Of a stretch of 49,310 bases of DNA, positions 7,644 through 16,953 are shown one piece after another. The DNA comes from Gemmatimonadota bacterium. GTDB lineage: Bacteria > Gemmatimonadota > Gemmatimonadetes > Longimicrobiales > Gaopeijiaceae. The stretch's first letter is position 1. Every line of letters begins with the position of its first letter. The notes under the pieces are model-generated. The model was not told the DNA's origin, made no database searches, and saw only the letters and a list, made by a program, of their open reading frames with translations. The DNA is taken from the NCBI GenBank assembly GCA_007125125.1, contig SLDT01000008.1, forward strand, positions 1 through 49,310, written 5' to 3'. The translations under genes and the position numbers were made by a program.

Positions 7644-8770
7644 TCTCCCATTTGGATCACCCCGTCGCGGATGCTCCAGCGCGGGAGCCGGTCACCGCGC
7701 AGGCGAATGTCCGAGGCGCGCGGAGCCGTCAGGATCACCTGTCCCACCGCCGTCCGCTCCAGGAGCTCGAGGACCCGCTCCGAGCGGGCCTCGTCGAGTT
7801 CCGCGAACACGTCGTCCATGAGAAGGATCGGGGCGCGTCCCCTTTGCTCCTCGAGCGTCCGTGCCTCGAGGAGGCGAAGGGCCAGGGCGACGCTTCGCCT
7901 CTGGCCCCCGGATCCGTAGCTCCTGACATCCCTCAGGCGTCCCCCATTGGGCACCCGCATCCGGAACTCGTCCCGATGCGGCCCGACCACGGTCGTCTGC
8001 ATGCGTCGCTCCTGGTCGACCGAGCTCCGCAACGCCGAGCGCAGCGACTCGTCGAAGGTCTCGGCATCATCCGGGCGAGCGTCGGTGGGGAGAGCCGGGA
8101 GGTAGACCAACTCGGCGGGCTCTCCCCCCGAGATCTCCGCGTGGAGCGAAGCGAAGGCCTCCCCCACCCCGGCGATCCAGGCGCGACGGGACGCGAACAC
8201 CCGCGCCCCTTCTCTGACGAGGGGCTCGTCCCAGGCCGCGATGGCAGCAGCCCCTCCCTCGCGCAGTGCCGCATTTCGCTGGCCGAGGACGCGCCGGTAG
8301 CGCTGGAGCGCCCCGAGGTAACCCGGCTCGTTCAGGGATAGCACGATGTCGAGGAAGCGGCGTCTCTCATGCGGCCCGTCGTTCACGAGCGCAAGGTCGG
8401 CCGGTGTGAAGAGGACCGCGCCAAGGTGCCCGACGGCATCGGCAAGCCGCTCCGGCTCGACCCCGTCGAGGGTCACTCTCTTTCGTGCGCCCTCCCGTTG
8501 CCAGGCGGCGGCGAGGGTACGCTCCTCCCCGCCCCCGGTCGCCCCTCGCACCACTCCCTCGACCCGGAAGAAGGCCTCGCCGAAGCGCACGAGTTCCGCA
8601 TCGCGGACCCCCCGGAAAGAACGAAAGAGCTCGAGGTAGTGGATCGCCTCGAGGAGGTTCGTCTTGCCCTGTGCGTTCGGGCCCACGAGCGCAATCCCCT
8701 CGGGGGGCAGCTCGAGCCGGACGTCGGCGAGGTTCCTGAACCCCTGGAGCCGGAGGCGGGCGAGGTGCAT
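7631..8770 (-). CDS. recF: DNA replication and repair protein RecF
   Basis: RecF is an SMC-like ATPase that helps RecOR load RecA at gaps. The 379 residues from ATG 8770 begin L-R-L-Q-G-F-R-N-L, as in the family. Walker A is G-P-N-A-Q-G-K-T-N near residue 30, the ABC signature is S-G-G-Q-R-R-S-V-A-L near 300, and Walker B is L-L-M-D-D-V-F-A-E-L-D near 330. An in-frame extension upstream to 8899 would overlap the crotonase gene and lacks family similarity, so the ATG directly before H-L-A-R-L is preferred. The gene is 28 bp downstream of a crotonase and overlaps dciA. dnaA and dnaN, frequent recF neighbours, are not adjacent here. Confidence 0.96.
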   Translation of the reverse strand: MHLARLRLQGFRNLADVRLELPPEGIALVGPNAQGKTNLLEAIHYLELFRSFRGVRDAELVRFGEAFFRVEGVVRGATGGGEERTLAAAWQREGARKRVTLDGVEPERLADAVGHLGAVLFTPADLALVNDGPHERRRFLDIVLSLNEPGYLGALQRYRRVLGQRNAALREGGAAAIAAWDEPLVREGARVFASRRAWIAGVGEAFASLHAEISGGEPAELVYLPALPTDARPDDAETFDESLRSALRSSVDQERRMQTTVVGPHRDEFRMRVPNGGRLRDVRSYGSGGQRRSVALALRLLEARTLEEQRGRAPILLMDDVFAELDEARSERVLELLERTAVGQVILTAPRASDIRLRGDRLPRWSIRDGVIQMGEWGP

Positions 8771-10373: not shown

Positions 10374-10748
10374 TCACGCCCCGACGTCCGGGGCCGGATC
10401 GGAGGATCGGTTCGGCCCCGGCTCGGTGCGCCACAGGCCAAGCATCTCTTCTTCGAACCGTGCCGGGTCCTCCTCGTAGGCGACGACCCAGGTCCTGAAG
10501 GGCGGAAGTCCCAGCTTCTCGTAGATCCGGGCCGTCGCGAGGCGCACGACTTCCTCGTACGAGAAGCTCTCGCTCGGCGCCGGTGTGTGGACGGCATTCT
10601 GGGCAAGGACGTACATCTCGTCCGGGGTCAGGCGCATGAGCACCTCGGCAACCCTGGCCGAACAGTAGTCCAAGTATTTTGCCCGCAAGACTGCATCCCG
10701 CGCTCCACCGGATCCGGCGTCAGATCGGGTTCGTCCGGGTTCGCTCAC
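10374..10748 (-). CDS. Small LPPFExW-family helical protein (unknown function)
   Basis: This 124-residue protein from GTG 10748 has no domain I can name. The core (residues 20-105) is helical. It opens with L-R-x-K-Y-x-x-Y, followed by an L-x-x-L-T-P-D-E segment near 38-44, and then an A-T-A-R-I-Y-E-K-L-G-L-P-P-F-R-T-W stretch at 71-87 leading to a Y-E-E-D-P-A-R-F helix. The same ordered pattern recurs in the proteins at 11445-12107 and 13251-13934, so these three form a local paralogous family. The ends are charged and probably disordered. It lies downstream of, and in the same direction as, the ribbon-helix-helix candidate. Function unknown; no catalytic motif is visible. Confidence 0.6.
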   Translation of the reverse strand: MSEPGRTRSDAGSGGARDAVLRAKYLDYCSARVAEVLMRLTPDEMYVLAQNAVHTPAPSESFSYEEVVRLATARIYEKLGLPPFRTWVVAYEEDPARFEEEMLGLWRTEPGPNRSSDPAPDVGA

Positions 10749-10853
10749 GTCTCCCCTCCGGCCAACGTGGTTGAGGGGATCGCCCGGATCCCCTCACCTA
10801 AACATTTGGCGCCGAAGGCAGAGCCGTCAAGGGCCGGGCTCCCGCGGGGACGC

Positions 10854-11081
10854 TCAGAGCATCAGGGACGGTCCCTCTCCGGTTCCGTTCGAGGGAGCGA
10901 GCGCTCCGCCGTTTTCGCGCAACTGTCGGTAGATCGAGCGCCGGGTGAGCCCGTACATCACGATTCGACTGAGGAATTCGGGATCACTCTCCTGCACAGC
11001 TTCGACCTCTTCGGCGAGCTCGCGCGGCAGGCGTACACGGAGTTGGACGGAGCGGGTTTCCCAGAGTTCGGATGCAGGCAA
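10854..11081 (-). CDS. Ribbon-helix-helix-like small protein, possible regulator
   Basis: The 75 residues from TTG 11081 include a segment V-Q-L-R-V-R-L-P-R-E-L-A-E-E-V, which fits the beta strand and first helix of a ribbon-helix-helix DNA-binding fold. A second helix follows, with S-D-P-E-F-L-S-R-I-V-M-Y-G-L-T-R-R-S-I-Y. The frame stays open to 11297, but that upstream part reads through an AT-rich stretch and a promoter, so I place the start after the promoter. TTG is the only plausible start codon between the promoter and the fold, and it has no clear Shine-Dalgarno. If real, it may regulate the surrounding LPPFExW genes. It could also be a short helical protein without DNA binding. Confidence 0.45.
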   Translation of the reverse strand: MPASELWETRSVQLRVRLPRELAEEVEAVQESDPEFLSRIVMYGLTRRSIYRQLRENGGALAPSNGTGEGPSLML

Positions 11082-11444
11082 GGTGGTGGGTGGCTGTGCG
11101 TGAGTGTCGGCTTGGGGAGTCCGGCGCGCCCCGGGTTCCGAAGAACACCCGGCGAACCGGCCCCCGTTGTATTCGGACTTGGATGATACGGCCGCTTTTT
11201 TTTTCGCGCAAGGGCACCCCGCCGATCTCCGCCAAACACGCCAATCAAGGCAAGTGACTGTGCCGCAAATACTTGCGCTATCGCTGGAAAAGGACAATTC
11301 AGCTGTTCCGGCGAATCACGTCTTTTGGTTTTTTTGAAATTCTCAATCGGCAATCGCAGTACTGGCTTGCCTTATTGGATCAGAGTTTCGCCGAAGCCGC
11401 ATTGTCCTCGTCACCGTTTTTTTACAAAACCGGCGAGGCTCGCT
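11082..11444. other. AT-rich trough with poly-T tracts, no gene
   Basis: This 363-bp stretch has clearly lower GC than its surroundings; about 11280-11440 is near 45% by eye. It holds three T-runs: T9 at 11196-11204, T7 at 11329-11335 and T7 at 11417-11423. The last sits in the imperfect palindrome CCGTTTTTTTACAAAACCGG just downstream of the 11445 stop. A strong minus-strand promoter lies at 11183-11211. I see no convincing coding region; longer frames through it lack family features. It may be regulatory, a DNA-bending site, or a remnant of transferred DNA. Confidence 0.5.
11183..11211 (-). promoter_or_regulatory. Sigma-70-type promoter
   Basis: On the minus strand a -35 box TTGCGC (11211-11206) is followed by a 17-bp spacer containing nine A, then a -10 box TATCAT (11188-11183) that matches the consensus at five of six positions. 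It points toward the ribbon-helix-helix candidate (start 11081) and the 124-residue gene beyond it, leaving a leader of roughly 95 nt. Confidence 0.55.
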
Positions 11445-12107
11445 TCAGGGTGCGACGGACCGGAAGAAGGCCTCGAGCGTGGCTGGCTGGAAGTCCCGGA
11501 AGCGGTCCCGGAACTCCTCGGGGCGTGCACCCCGGAAGATCTCCGTCGTGCGATACTCGAGCCCGTCGCTTCTCGACATGAAGCAGAGAAAACCCCGCCA
11601 CTCCCGGTCCCTGCAGAAGAGCTGGAGGCCGACCGTCCAGTCCGGACCCAGGGTGCGAACGTCCACGAGCACGGGCTCTTCGCGGGCCGGAAAAGCCTCC
11701 ACGCCGAGAGCCTCGAGGAAGGGGCGTCGGTCGCGGAGGTAGTGATGCACCCAGACCTCCCAGGGAGGAAGGGGGAGGACTCCCCGGACGAATTCCACGG
11801 CGAGGGCGAGAGGATCCACAACGGGTGCGTGGTCAACCTCCGTCGTCGCATGGCCCCCGGCTGTCTCCGGACCGGGAGCCGACGTCCCGGGAGGCACGGT
11901 GGGCTGCTCTGCCCGGTGAAGGGCACGTGCCTCCGCATACACCGCCCTGAGGCCCTCCTTGGGGATCAGGGTGAGAAGCTGTCGAGCCTCGTGATCACAA
12001 TAGCGCTCATAGAGGCCCCGGAGCCCCTCGAGTCCCGGCGCCCGACTCCGGCTCGCCGACGAGGAGAACCCGGCCTCCGCCCCTGGCTCGGCACTGGGCG
12101 TGAGCAT
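11445..12107 (-). CDS. LPPFExW-family protein with helical module then beta module (unknown function)
   Basis: The 220-residue product has two modules. The helical one (about 27-137) runs L-R-x-L-Y-x-x-Y-C near 29-37, L-L-T-L-I-P-K-E near 44-51, a Pro/Ala-rich insert at 68-95, then L-P-L-P-P-W-E-V-W at 111-119 and a Y-L-R-D helix. The second (about 143-218) is beta-rich with W-R-G-F-L-C-F at 170-176 and R-T-T-E-I-F at 186-191. Both modules reappear in reverse order in the protein at 13251-13934. No signal peptide, membrane segment or known motif is seen. The ATG overlaps the stop of the 12107-12973 gene by one base (TGATG), so the two are translationally coupled. Function unknown. Confidence 0.65.
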   Translation of the reverse strand: MLTPSAEPGAEAGFSSSASRSRAPGLEGLRGLYERYCDHEARQLLTLIPKEGLRAVYAEARALHRAEQPTVPPGTSAPGPETAGGHATTEVDHAPVVDPLALAVEFVRGVLPLPPWEVWVHHYLRDRRPFLEALGVEAFPAREEPVLVDVRTLGPDWTVGLQLFCRDREWRGFLCFMSRSDGLEYRTTEIFRGARPEEFRDRFRDFQPATLEAFFRSVAP

Positions 12108-12973
12108 CAGTGCACGCGCCCCGAGCTTCCGCGCCCCGACCCGGAGAGGGGCTGGAGGCGAGGCAGCGGCCGGTCTCGGAGCTGCGCCAGAGAGTCCCTC
12201 TCTCCAAAGGCGTCGAGGTGTTCCCTTACCGCCCGGTACCGGGCCGGCTCATAGCGAGCCAGGAGGTGCAGGAACCCCCGACGCGCCTTCGCCATCAGAC
12301 TCCGGGCCTCGCCAACGCTGCGAGGGGTCGGGAGCGGGATGTGGTAGGACTGGATCCCCGTCGCGTCTGCGCTCCGTCCCCCGAGAAGATCTCCGGAAAA
12401 GGCATCGCGAAGTGCCGACTCGAGCGCTGGGTTGCGGCCCCCGACTGCGGTGCGAGCCACGAGCGTCGTCGAGCCGTAGTCCAGGTGAAGGCGCACGACG
12501 CTCCCTGGAATGGCGAGCCGGAGCGCGGTAGACTCGTGCAGGTCGAGGTCACGCACGAGGTCTCGGAATCCGATCCGAAGGTGGTGGGGCCGCGTCACCT
12601 CGTTGAATCCATGCCGGTCGAGGGCACGGAGTGCGAGGGAGAAGGAGTAGCGGCGAAGGCTCTCCGGGCTCTCCCGCAGTCCCTCGCGCAGGGTGCTCAG
12701 TGTCGAAGAAAACACCCAGCCCAGGATGACGAGGGGCCCCTCGAAGCTCACCTGGCGAGCCCGTGCGCTGCCAAGGTCGAGCACCTCGGGCCGAAGCAGG
12801 TCGTCACTGCGCAGCACGACTCCGAGGCCGATGTCGTCGATCGGCCCGCCGAGTTCGGCGGAGGCGGCGTCATTCCGGTAGGGAACGATCGCCCTCTCGA
12901 GCGAGATCTCGCAAATTCCCGTGATGAGTGGCTCGGCCTCGGGGCGGTGACCCGTCCCGGTCGATGGGATCAT
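12107..12973 (-). CDS. Hypothetical protein, operon partner of an LPPFExW protein
   Basis: I do not recognise this 288-residue protein. It starts at ATG 12973, after which I-P-S-T-G-T-G-H-R leads into T-G-I-C-E-I-S-L-E-R. The frame is open another 90 bp upstream, but that part is Arg/Pro-rich and unlikely. The middle (about 150-205) alternates strands and helices, with G-S-V-V-R-L-H-L-D-Y-G-S near 175. The C-terminal third is helical and basic. No transmembrane helix or signal is evident. It is coupled to the downstream LPPFExW gene by a one-base stop/start overlap and is divergent from another LPPFExW gene across 277 bp, so the three probably act together. That functional link is inference. 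Confidence 0.6.
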   Translation of the reverse strand: MIPSTGTGHRPEAEPLITGICEISLERAIVPYRNDAASAELGGPIDDIGLGVVLRSDDLLRPEVLDLGSARARQVSFEGPLVILGWVFSSTLSTLREGLRESPESLRRYSFSLALRALDRHGFNEVTRPHHLRIGFRDLVRDLDLHESTALRLAIPGSVVRLHLDYGSTTLVARTAVGGRNPALESALRDAFSGDLLGGRSADATGIQSYHIPLPTPRSVGEARSLMAKARRGFLHLLARYEPARYRAVREHLDAFGERDSLAQLRDRPLPRLQPLSGSGRGSSGRVH

Positions 12974-13250
12974 TCCGACGCCTCCGTCAGTTCCTGGGTG
13001 CGCGGCCGTCTTCCGAGCAGGAAGGCACGGTCCCCGGAAGAAGCTCCGGGGGGATCCCACCATAACCCCCGGCGGCGAAACCCCGCAAGAGAAAACCGCG
13101 CTGTTCGGTACCGAGGCCTGCGATCCCGGCCGACGCGCTTGCTCCGCTCCGCCGGTCCGGACATCTTCTCCTTGTCGGGGTCGTCACCGACACCCCGTAG
13201 CGCCATGCCCCGGGCATCGGGGCCTCTCGTCACTCTCATCCGGAGTTGCA

Positions 13251-13934
13251 GTGTCGTCGGACGGACTCCATCGCCGATCCGTCGGGTTCCTCGACCGCGA
13301 CGGAACGAGCTGGTCCTGCTTCCTCGTGACCTTTCAGTGCGGAAGCCACGGGCAGTGGAAGGGTTACTTCGCCTTCCGGCCCGCGAACGGGGGCCCCGAA
13401 GAAGAGGAGATCCGCACCGCCGACATCTTCCTCGAGGCGAGCGAGGCCGAGATCGACCGGAAGGCGAGAGGGCTGGGCCGGCCACTTCTTTCGGGCCTCC
13501 TCTCGTCGGCCATGCACCTTCGCGAACGGGAAGAGCGCGACCCGCCGCGGCTTCGGGCCTGGTTTCGGGACATGCTCCGCGACAACTCCCGGGAGCTGGC
13601 CGGCCGGTGGGAGCCCGGAATGGAGGCAGGTGAGGGCCGCACCCTCGCGGAGCTCCGCTCGATCTACGCATCCTACCGGCTCGACCAGGTTGCGCACCTC
13701 ATCAGTCTCCTGCACCCCGAAGACTTTCAGGACCTCGTGTCCCGGATCCTCGACGGCCAGAGCTTCGACTTCGGCGCGCGCGACCGGCTTCAGTTCGCGA
13801 TGATGGTCGTGGAGCACATCGAGGGGCTCCTCCCCCTCCCGCCCTTCGAACTCTGGGCGCAGGACTACCTCGCGAATGAAGAGGCCTACCGCCTCTACAC
13901 GCATGCACTCCATCGCGAGGGCAACCTCACCTGA
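13251..13934 (+). CDS. LPPFExW-family protein with beta module then helical module (unknown function)
   Basis: This 227-residue protein starts at GTG 13251, with CGGAG as a ribosome-binding site 5 bases before it. Residues about 8-92 form a beta-rich module with W-S-C-F-L-V-T-F near 21-28, W-K-G-Y-F-A-F at 36-42 and R-T-A-D-I-F at 55-60. Residues about 130-222 form the helical module: L-R-S-I-Y-x-x-Y near 135-142, L-I-S-L-L-H-P-E-D near 150-158, and L-L-P-L-P-P-F-E-L-W at 193-202 followed by Q-D-Y-L. The same two modules occur in the opposite order in the protein at 11445-12107. No catalytic signature or membrane segment is visible. The gene is divergent from that operon and ends in a strong terminator. 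Confidence 0.7.
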   Translation: MSSDGLHRRSVGFLDRDGTSWSCFLVTFQCGSHGQWKGYFAFRPANGGPEEEEIRTADIFLEASEAEIDRKARGLGRPLLSGLLSSAMHLREREERDPPRLRAWFRDMLRDNSRELAGRWEPGMEAGEGRTLAELRSIYASYRLDQVAHLISLLHPEDFQDLVSRILDGQSFDFGARDRLQFAMMVVEHIEGLLPLPPFELWAQDYLANEEAYRLYTHALHREGNLT

Positions 13935-13976: not shown

Positions 13977-16577
13977 TCAGGGCAGCGCCGGCGCGTCGAC
14001 CCGGACGTTGTCGAGAGCTGCGCTGTAGAAGTTGGCGAGATCGATCAGGGCGAAGCGGAGCCGCACGGTCTGCCCTGCGAAGGCACTCAGGTCATGGGAC
14101 ACCGGGATGAACCCGTTCGTATTGACGGGCGTGGGGCCATCCACGGTCTGGTAGACCGTCGCGAGAACCCCGGGCCCGACATCAAGCAGCGGCCCCGTCG
14201 GATCGACGAGGTCGACCCGGAAGTGCTGGTTCGGGAGAGCGAGGTTGAGGGGGTCCGTCGGGTGCACGATCTCGGAGCTGTGCCAGTTCCGAAGCGCCAG
14301 GTCGAACCTCAGGACGCCACCCGAAGCGGGAACGGTGATGTCCTGGTAGAGCACCGCGAGCGTGGGACCGTTCTGGTCCACGACCACGTAGAAGTCCCCG
14401 TCGGTCGGGCCCGGATTGTCCGTGGACATCGGCCAGTCGAATTGGGAGAGGGGCAGGTCGCTCCCGTCGTTGAGGAACCAGTTCCCGGATCCCTCAACGT
14501 AGGTGCTCCACCCCGGAATCGTCGAACTCCCGTTCGCTGCGTCGATCTCGAAGGAGCCGTTCTGCAGGCCCCCCGGAGTCACGATGACGACAGCGCCGCC
14601 CTCGGCTGCACCGGAGGCGGCCCGGACCACGGTCTCGCCCTCGGCGACCCCCGTGACCCCTCCGTCGAGATCGACGCTGGCCACCGGCGTGTCGTCCGAA
14701 CTCCAGGCAACGGACGCCCCCGTGATTGCGCTTCCGAGCGCGTCGCGGACCTCGGCCGAGAGTGCGCCAGTCGCGCCTTCGAAGAGCTCGAGGGTGTCGG
14801 GGACAACGATCACGGTGTGCGACACCTGCTGCACCTCGAGTCCGAGACTCGTCGACAGGGCGCCAAGGCTCGCGACCAGGTTGTCGATCCCGTTCGTCAG
14901 GGCCGTCACCCGGCCGCGTGTGGCGGCGGCATTCGATACCTCGAGGATCGCCCCGTTCTCGAAGGACCAGGTGACCGTGTCACCGGTCGCATTCCCGAAG
15001 ATGTCTTCGACCATCGCTTCGTAGTCTCTCGTCTGGCCCAGGGAGTGGAAGTCCGTCGGTGCAGGGAGAATTCGAATCGACGCCGGTACCCCGGCCCGGG
15101 CCTCGGCCTGGACCTGCAGCGAGAGTCCTGCCGCCGTGGCGACGAGGGTCTGGGCTCCTGCGGCAGGTCCGAGACGCCAACGTACTTCGGCCCGTCCCTC
15201 CGCGTCGGTCGGCTCGGCGGCCCCGGCGACGACCTCGCCTCCGTCGGGTGTGGTCCAGCTCACCGGGAGGTCGGGGATCGGGAAGCCGGACGCGTCGAGG
15301 AGCTGAACCCGAATCGCTCCAGAAAGCTCGCTCCCAGCCGTAGCGGCCTGTCCGTCCCCGTTCAGGAGGTTGAGCTGACCCGCCGCGCCGGCGACGACGG
15401 CCACCGGAATCTCCTCGGAGAACCCGGCCGCCTCGGCGATCACCACCGCCGAACCCACCGAGAGGGCACGAACCCTGGCATCCCCCTCGATCGCCACAAC
15501 GCCGTCATCGCCAACCGAGAGTTCGACGACGATCCCGGGAACCCGAGCACCGAGCGCGTCGCGCACGACCACATCGACCCCAGCTGTTTCTCCCGGCACG
15601 AGGCTGATCTGGGCCGGAGCGACCTGGATCCGGTCGGGCACCTGCGCGACCGTCACCGTCGCCGAGCCACTTGCCCCTCCGGCCGAAGCGACGGCAAGTG
15701 CCGTTCCGTTTGACCGCGCCCACGCCCGCCCTTGGGCGTCGACCCGCACGACCGCGGTGTCACTCGAACTCCAGCTCACCGGGAGGTGGTCGACGAGCTC
15801 ACCCCGGAAGTCACGGACCTCAACCTCGAGCTGCACCTGCTCCGTGATCGAGGCGAACGGCACTTCCGAGGGCGTGACCGTGACCGTCTCCACGAGCGGA
15901 CGGACGGACAGTTCCAGGGTGTCGGCGCGCGTCCCGGCCGCCGCGATGATCCGTGCGGTTCCCTCGCCTTGCCCCAAGACCTCTCCCGAGGCCGAGACTG
16001 TCGCGACAGAGGGGTCGAGCGACCCCCAGAACCACCCGGCTGGGGCCCCCCCGGCCCCTTGCACGCCCAGGGCCCATGCCTCGCCGATTCCGAGCTGAGC
16101 CGGCGCACCACTCACACTCACGCCCGAGAGATCAAGGTTCGACAGAGGACCCGGGTAGAGAGTCAGCGAGACCGACACCTCGGAACCGGGCTCGAGGGTT
16201 GCGCCCGCGACCCGACCCGACCAGAGCACGGGTCGCTCCTCTCCCACCTGCCCCCGCACCAGGACCTCGACCGCACCGACCTCGATGGGCTCCGACCCGA
16301 CCGCAACCTGGATTGGTCCGAAGACGAAGGGAAAGGTCTGAGTGAAGAGGACCGTGCGCGAATGGATCTCTGCCCCCTCGGGGTCGATCACCCTCAGATC
16401 GACGGAGGCTGCAGACATCGGGGGCTCCGTGCCATGAGCTTCGGCCTGGGCCGATACGCTCAGGAGCATTGCCTCTTCCGGCACGACCTCGAGCGGGTCG
16501 CTTCCGGACTCGGAGCAGGCGGCAACCCCAACGAAGAGGGCAAGGATCGGGACCATCCATCGGGTGATTCTGAACAT
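13977..16577 (-). CDS. Large surface lipoprotein with bacterial Ig-like repeats and C-terminal beta-sandwich
   Basis: The 866-residue product begins with a lipoprotein signal: charged M-F-R-I-T-R-W, a hydrophobic stretch, then G-V-A-A-C at about 18-22. The frame extends upstream to 16739, but the ATG at 16577 is the one that gives the signal peptide. Several Ig-like (Big_2/Big_1-type) repeats follow, each with patterns such as V-S-W-S-S-S-D-T-A-V or V-A-W-S-S-D-D-T-P-V and a closing G-x-A-x-V-x-A. The region around 440-600 resembles the invasin/Big_1 type. The last 190 residues look like a jelly-roll or galactose-binding-like domain starting N-G-S-F-E-I and ending with L-D-N-V-R-V. It is probably anchored in the outer membrane and exposed, perhaps in adhesion or carbohydrate binding; the ligand is unknown. 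Confidence 0.8.
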   Translation of the reverse strand: MFRITRWMVPILALFVGVAACSESGSDPLEVVPEEAMLLSVSAQAEAHGTEPPMSAASVDLRVIDPEGAEIHSRTVLFTQTFPFVFGPIQVAVGSEPIEVGAVEVLVRGQVGEERPVLWSGRVAGATLEPGSEVSVSLTLYPGPLSNLDLSGVSVSGAPAQLGIGEAWALGVQGAGGAPAGWFWGSLDPSVATVSASGEVLGQGEGTARIIAAAGTRADTLELSVRPLVETVTVTPSEVPFASITEQVQLEVEVRDFRGELVDHLPVSWSSSDTAVVRVDAQGRAWARSNGTALAVASAGGASGSATVTVAQVPDRIQVAPAQISLVPGETAGVDVVVRDALGARVPGIVVELSVGDDGVVAIEGDARVRALSVGSAVVIAEAAGFSEEIPVAVVAGAAGQLNLLNGDGQAATAGSELSGAIRVQLLDASGFPIPDLPVSWTTPDGGEVVAGAAEPTDAEGRAEVRWRLGPAAGAQTLVATAAGLSLQVQAEARAGVPASIRILPAPTDFHSLGQTRDYEAMVEDIFGNATGDTVTWSFENGAILEVSNAAATRGRVTALTNGIDNLVASLGALSTSLGLEVQQVSHTVIVVPDTLELFEGATGALSAEVRDALGSAITGASVAWSSDDTPVASVDLDGGVTGVAEGETVVRAASGAAEGGAVVIVTPGGLQNGSFEIDAANGSSTIPGWSTYVEGSGNWFLNDGSDLPLSQFDWPMSTDNPGPTDGDFYVVVDQNGPTLAVLYQDITVPASGGVLRFDLALRNWHSSEIVHPTDPLNLALPNQHFRVDLVDPTGPLLDVGPGVLATVYQTVDGPTPVNTNGFIPVSHDLSAFAGQTVRLRFALIDLANFYSAALDNVRVDAPALP

Positions 16578-16953
16578 GGCAGTGAAGCGGATCGAGGAGC
16601 GAGTCGGGCCGAAGGCACTGTGGCACGGAAGAAGCCGGCACGGTACGGAGGCCTGCACCAGCCCCGGCCACTCGCAAGCAACATGCCCGCACGAAGCGCG
16701 ACTGTTCACTCCGATTGGCACAAGCCTGCCAGACCCCAACTCTCGCTTCCTTCGCGTACCACCGCCCTCGTCGGTTCCACTCCGGCCCCCTCTCGATACA
16801 GCCGGGCTGCCGCCTGCTCACAGGACCCTCGCCCCCGTGTTCCGCCCCGTGTCCATGCAATTCGCAAGACCACGCCGACAACTTGAACTGGCGCCCTGAC
16901 CCTGCTATCTTGCGGAGATTGTCACCCGTTTTCCGTACTACCGCATTGGGAGC
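16578..16953. other. Divergent intergenic region upstream of rpsU and the Ig lipoprotein
   Basis: This 376-bp gap between two divergent genes contains the rpsU promoter at 16883-16911. I see no further gene; the frames through it are Arg/Pro-rich shadows. A promoter for the minus-strand lipoprotein must also lie here, but I could not pick a clear pair of boxes. Confidence 0.5.
16883..16911 (+). promoter_or_regulatory. Sigma-70-type promoter of rpsU
   Basis: TTGAAC (16883-16888), a 17-bp spacer and TATCTT (16906-16911) form a good -35/-10 pair. It lies about 43 bp upstream of the GTG start of rpsU. Confidence 0.55.

Follow-up and report, generated by a model that had tools for sequence, protein, structure and literature searches.

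Two undescribed protein modules, H and beta, and a putative ribbon–helix–helix-type regulator in a conserved chromosomal locus of Gemmatimonadota

Ribbon–helix–helix (RHH) autoregulators of the Arc/MetJ/NikR type are proteins of about 60–75 residues with a short strand followed by two helices; they are encoded by the first gene of a small operon and use an inverted-repeat operator whose two half-sites, of 6 bp each, lie about 15 bp apart. The operator spacing of NikR is close to the two-half-site spacing that is seen in the locus described here. This locus, from a Gemmatimonadota bacterium, shares the above features through a small protein, R. However, R has no significant profile match, its partner gene, A, comes from a new domain family, and its candidate operator is nearly unique in the genome. 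Toxin–antitoxin operons with RHH antitoxins are likewise similar in gene order and probable autoregulation, whereas the genes analysed here are core, single-copy and vertically inherited, with no toxin family among them. No literature on the A-R-B-D/C locus was found.

The window, i.e., the whole stretch of 49,310 nucleotides that was analysed, contains the following features of the locus:

10374–10748, minus strand: gene A, 124 aa; single helical module H at about residues 19–107 (10428–10694)
10854–11081, minus strand: gene R, 75 aa from a TTG start; small RHH-like protein
11183–11188, minus strand: predicted −10 hexamer TATCAT of the R-A promoter
11206–11211, minus strand: predicted −35 hexamer TTGCGC, 17 bp from the −10 hexamer
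11250–11276: candidate operator, 27-bp dyad GCAAGTATTTG-CGGCA-CAGTCACTTGC (read on the minus strand)
11445–12107, minus strand: gene B, 220 aa; H at about 27–136 (11700–12029), beta at 141–220 (11448–11687)
12107–13063, minus strand: gene D, 318 aa; predicted domain at residues 158–271 (12251–12592)
12110–12115, minus strand: C-terminal Val-His of D
13251–13934, plus strand: gene C, 227 aa; beta at about 4–92 (13260–13526), H at about 128–222 (13632–13916)

Read from the side of the convergent ssb gene, A, R, B and D lie on the minus strand and C is divergent on the plus strand. The initial annotation had proposed a cluster of A, B and C; all three open reading frames are present at the coordinates above (A and B on the minus strand, C on the plus strand), with a GC content by codon position that looks coding, and the cluster is real, although the 318-residue gene D between B and C had been missed. 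The flanks hold ssb, an enoyl-CoA hydratase-like gene, recF, dciA and gyrB (by Pfam, except for the hydratase, by sequence only). Just beyond C and convergent with it, a large protein with Big_1/Big_2 Ig-like repeats is encoded at 13977–16739.

Together with these flanking genes, from ssb to gyrB, the cluster is syntenic in most relatives and is an old, vertically inherited core gene set. The term island, used for it previously, is therefore apt as a positional description only, since the locus is syntenic core chromosome rather than a mobile island. Among 395 genomes of the phylum, beta modules occur in 211, R in 136 (in a single copy in nearly all of them) and D in 83, and the C profile matches C or other H or beta proteins in 117. 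R-A was found in six of the families that we number f1–f9 and infer to be Longimicrobiales and relatives, namely f1, f2, f3, f7 and f9, plus one f4 genome. The order in the window's family is mostly A-R-B-D / C, and that in f2 is A-R / C, where B is missing and D usually so. Outside the window's family, D occurs in one genome only, and C, D and B are gone from many genomes that retain R-A. The search outside the phylum covered C in one genome-contig scan and in phage and plasmid records; C was absent from the 50,697 phage and 72,556 plasmid records. One contig labelled Gammaproteobacteria (L080) carries R-D-C, with a C protein 66% identical to that of the window, and is probably a misbinned Gemmatimonadota contig.

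The helical domain that had been proposed to be common to A, B and C is borne out by profile–profile comparison with orthologues. These came from 58 related genomes, 46 of which match C, from later searches, and from 15 named genome contigs that, apart from L080, carry the label Gemmatimonadetes/Gemmatimonadales. The proposed ordered motif is found in all three proteins, as L21-R22-A-K-Y25-L-D-Y28 followed by LPPFRTW in A, LRGLYERY with LPLPPWEVW in B, and LRSIYASY with LPLPPFELW in C; however, A has Arg rather than Glu after LPPF, and C has LxxLxxPE instead of the claimed LxxLxPxE. Single-sequence BLASTP gave E = 8e-7 for B–C, a weak similarity for A–B (E = 0.007) and no relevant match for A–C. 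The homology of the H module of A would thus be in doubt from pairwise BLASTP alone, but becomes decisive once orthologues are added. The H modules of A and B scored 76 (probability 98.4%; maximum of column-shuffled controls 16), those of A and C 67 (97.8%; 19) and those of B and C 103 (99.3%; 16), with 40 column-shuffled controls per pair, while unrelated module pairs, used as negative controls, scored at background. The H pairs thus stand at 67–103 against shuffled maxima of 16–19, well above background. A single alignment of all fragments was left out, as MAFFT set the beta helices of B on the H helices of C. In a tree, the H proteins form three groups, A, B and C (support 98, 98 and 74, respectively), B and C lie together on one side of a branch with support 98, and A follows the families. 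The H half of an AlphaFold model of C is uncertain (pLDDT about 55–87, pTM 0.46).

No named family had been recognized for this domain from the sequence, and the searches agree: H has no match among the families of Pfam, NCBIfam, PADLOC or the PDB. Neither the single proteins A, B, C, D and R nor their aligned families had a significant Pfam match; NCBIfam and PADLOC scans of single proteins gave nothing for A, B or C; and PDB sequence profiles compared with modules H and beta gave chance matches only, none of them credible. As judged from these profile comparisons, H is an undescribed helical domain that is homologous in A, B and C.

The earlier description of a shared H domain is correct, although it missed a second module, beta, that is common to B (141–220) and C (about 4–92), with a profile score of 77 against a shuffled maximum of 20.5. 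The order of the two modules is swapped, B being H-beta and C being beta-H, which may reflect one permutation or two fusions; the beta tree has few columns. Elsewhere, beta occurs as stand-alone genes beside a gene for a MazE/AbrB-like protein (f1 and f2, the genome of the window among them), as a separate gene behind R-A in f7 (R-A-beta), as a gene that overlaps a stand-alone HisKA gene by one base in f4, and as a gene following an RsbRD_N gene in f6. Beta thus has regulatory neighbours in four unrelated settings, which favours a role in signalling or as an adaptor; these neighbours vary between families, however, so that guilt by association is a loose argument here. In several f4 genomes the protein overlapped by beta has 62–66 residues and consists of the HisKA (histidine kinase dimerisation/phosphoacceptor) domain alone, without an ATPase domain (beta–HisKA pairs at L173:4936-5408, L177:4868-5388 and L171:5088-5743). 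Beside another beta gene, two small proteins of 81 and 78 residues (L122:7754-7996 and 8104-8337) have a similar W...F...R pattern and no Pfam match; they are perhaps distant beta relatives.

Beta shows a weak structural likeness to the WGR domain. The beta half of the C model superposes by Foldseek on a phage WGR-domain protein (probability 0.98, rmsd 2.9 over 69 columns, E 0.21), although nothing reached E 0.001 or better when the model was compared with the PDB and viral models. However, the WGR profile (PF05406) has no match in beta proteins, which carry Trp-x-Gly rather than Trp-Gly-Arg.

In D, which has no Pfam match, an AlphaFold model (mean pLDDT 78, mostly above 80 over residues 80–290) contains a predicted alpha-beta3-alpha-beta2-alpha arrangement at residues 158–271, mostly with pLDDT above 80. 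This is the element order of the YbjN/type-III-secretion chaperone topology (PMC3575483), and D is predicted to hold a YbjN/type-III-chaperone-like domain. Unlike these proteins, D carries an additional N-terminal half and ends in an invariant His, mostly as Val/Ile-His, and it shows no sequence match to them and weak structural scores: SchA, ExsC and YbjN were among the Foldseek matches at E 0.13–0.44, with nothing at E 0.001 or better, and all fell below the TM of 0.5 taken to mark similarity (best TMt 0.43). All 36 distinct D orthologues compared end in His, which with one exception comes after Val or Ile; a disordered, variable linker precedes this end. We rejected the idea that the Val/Ile-His is an artefact of the B start site, because the codons vary and the residues are kept where no B follows. 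D was also considered as a further copy of H or beta and rejected, since true pairs score far higher; the D_C–C_H pair (23.7 against a shuffled maximum of 22.1) was the only one slightly above its maximum. The stop codon of D overlaps the start codon of B (TGATG) in the window and several other loci, and B or a B remnant never occurs without D (37/37 loci with B or a remnant), whereas D occurs without B. In one genome, G122 (loci L132 and L159), D and a shortened B have moved jointly to a site about 0.6 Mb from R-A.

The initial annotation had also mentioned a possible regulator in the cluster, an idea supported by the properties of R, which is RHH-like and has a conserved dyad upstream. Its TTG start (11081) is common to four relatives (L074, L075, L077 and L081), and its alignment shows the strand-helix-helix pattern of RHH proteins. 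However, R matches no RHH profile significantly; one of 23 R members touches Pfam Arc, and that match is weak (E = 0.11). The presumed DNA-reading strand varies by family, being Q-x-N-x-R in f1 and N-x-A-x-D in f7. A adjoins R on the same strand, about 100 bp away, in 70 of 71 R loci, the exception being L080, which stops at the contig edge. The R-A pair of f9 (L149, L150, L151 and L165) lies directly downstream of the Ku-LigD end-joining genes on the same strand; Pfam confirmed the identity of Ku and LigD in L150.

The regions upstream of R have k-mer counts far above those of shuffled sequence, and 43 of 66 carry CTTGC near the −35 position. Alignment on CTTGC revealed a promoter-like pair, which in the window is TTGCGC-17 bp-TATCAT, and an inverted repeat, GTAASTYGTTG-N5-CAACRASTTAC, about 40–65 bp above the promoter. 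Its half-sites, GTAAST-N14..17-ASTTAC (10 or more of 12 positions), were found in 47 of the 66 regions against 3.8 expected, a count that is inflated because the dyad was derived from the loci in which it was counted. This derivation has no bearing, however, on the controls, on the clustering in position or on the rarity of the dyad across the genome. Most half-site matches cluster about −210 from R, and the regions in front of A, B, C and D do not exceed background. Eight of nine f1 genomes hold only 1–3 dyad sites genome-wide (3 or fewer mismatches), including one at R in all eight; the other sites are scattered, none being shared between genomes, and a backward control pattern found no sites in these f1 genomes. 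The copy in the window, at 11250–11276, is the sole match to the degenerate pattern there and is itself degenerate, being missed at the 3-mismatch stringency. A putative inverted-repeat operator, as would be expected of an RHH protein, is thus present in sequence at the R promoter. Such a candidate operator upstream of R is well supported, although the dyad could belong to a regulator other than R.

The reading we prefer, at a little less than an even chance, is that R binds DNA and that the H, beta and D proteins are its partners in a lineage-specific, autoregulated module; the R-A pairing, the single-copy R, the operator and the regulatory neighbours of beta were counted in its favour. Counted against it were the lack of a significant RHH profile match for R, the variation of its presumed DNA-reading strand, the derivation of the dyad from the loci in which it was counted, the gap of about 100 bp between R and A, the varied neighbours of beta and the weak Foldseek matches of D. 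R would bind the 27-bp dyad about 40–65 bp upstream of its own sigma-70-like promoter and control the R-A operon, repressing or tuning its own expression. A, with one H module, would be the constant partner of R, and H would most likely be a helical domain for protein–protein interaction, one that contacts R or further H proteins and modifies binding to DNA. Beta would be a second partner on the input side, passing on a signal, either as a separate gene behind A in one taxonomic order or fused to further H copies as C and B in the order of the window's bacterium; in the window's family, B and C would act as partners through H. The presence of D wherever B occurs, their TGATG overlap and their joint move in G122 suggest D as a partner of B, which it may stabilise or gate.

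The chief rival is a chromosome-maintenance complex, in which R, the H proteins, beta and D would act on replication, repair or segregation with SSB and the neighbouring products. It owes this rank to changing but repeated neighbours (ssb, recF, dciA and gyrB in f1, Ku-LigD in f9, LigD/FtsZ as well as a position between LexA and ParA in f3), to the weak WGR-like fold match of the beta half of C, and to a precedent, the YbjN-like DR1245 of Deinococcus, which binds the SSB-like DdrB (PMC3575483). However, ssb is convergent and not co-transcribed, each family has different neighbours, with none of that kind in f7, and the structure matches are below significance with no WGR profile match; we consider this rival unlikely. 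We give a similarly low probability to the proposal that H, beta and D are housekeeping structural or metabolic assembly factors merely sharing a locus with the R-A operon. C and D-B are indeed transcribed apart from R-A or separated from it by about 360 bp of intergenic sequence, and their loss from genomes keeping R-A would fit; against this, A is tied to B and C by H itself, and beta ties the latter two to the f7 operon R-A-beta. Less probable again is a domesticated or active toxin–antitoxin system, with R as an RHH antitoxin repressing the operon, A as the toxin and B-C-D as derived accessory genes. Such a system would look like this, a small RHH-like gene followed directly by another small gene and served by its own operator, and it would account for the order of R and A and for autoregulation. 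It would not account for a core distribution that is vertical and single-copy: R-A is syntenic and near-universal in the family rather than patchy, mobile or multi-copy, A follows the families in the tree, C is absent from the phage and plasmid records, and there is no toxin–antitoxin or PADLOC match.

Returning to the autoregulated module, we put at about even the chance that H and beta are working parts of a Gemmatimonadota-specific regulatory system, under a dedicated regulator of the RHH type whose operator occurs almost nowhere but at its own promoter, and with modules that also occur as separate genes and as H-beta and beta-H fusions. H and beta are two unnamed domain families from a little-studied phylum, and their evolutionary record is clear; their split, H-beta and beta-H states form a natural case of domain-order change. 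A precise test is provided by one 27-bp DNA element and one 75-residue protein. Should R not bind the dyad, annotation would still gain a set of new core protein families from the locus. If R does bind it, and A, B, C or D change the binding, a class-wide control system would become open to experiment.
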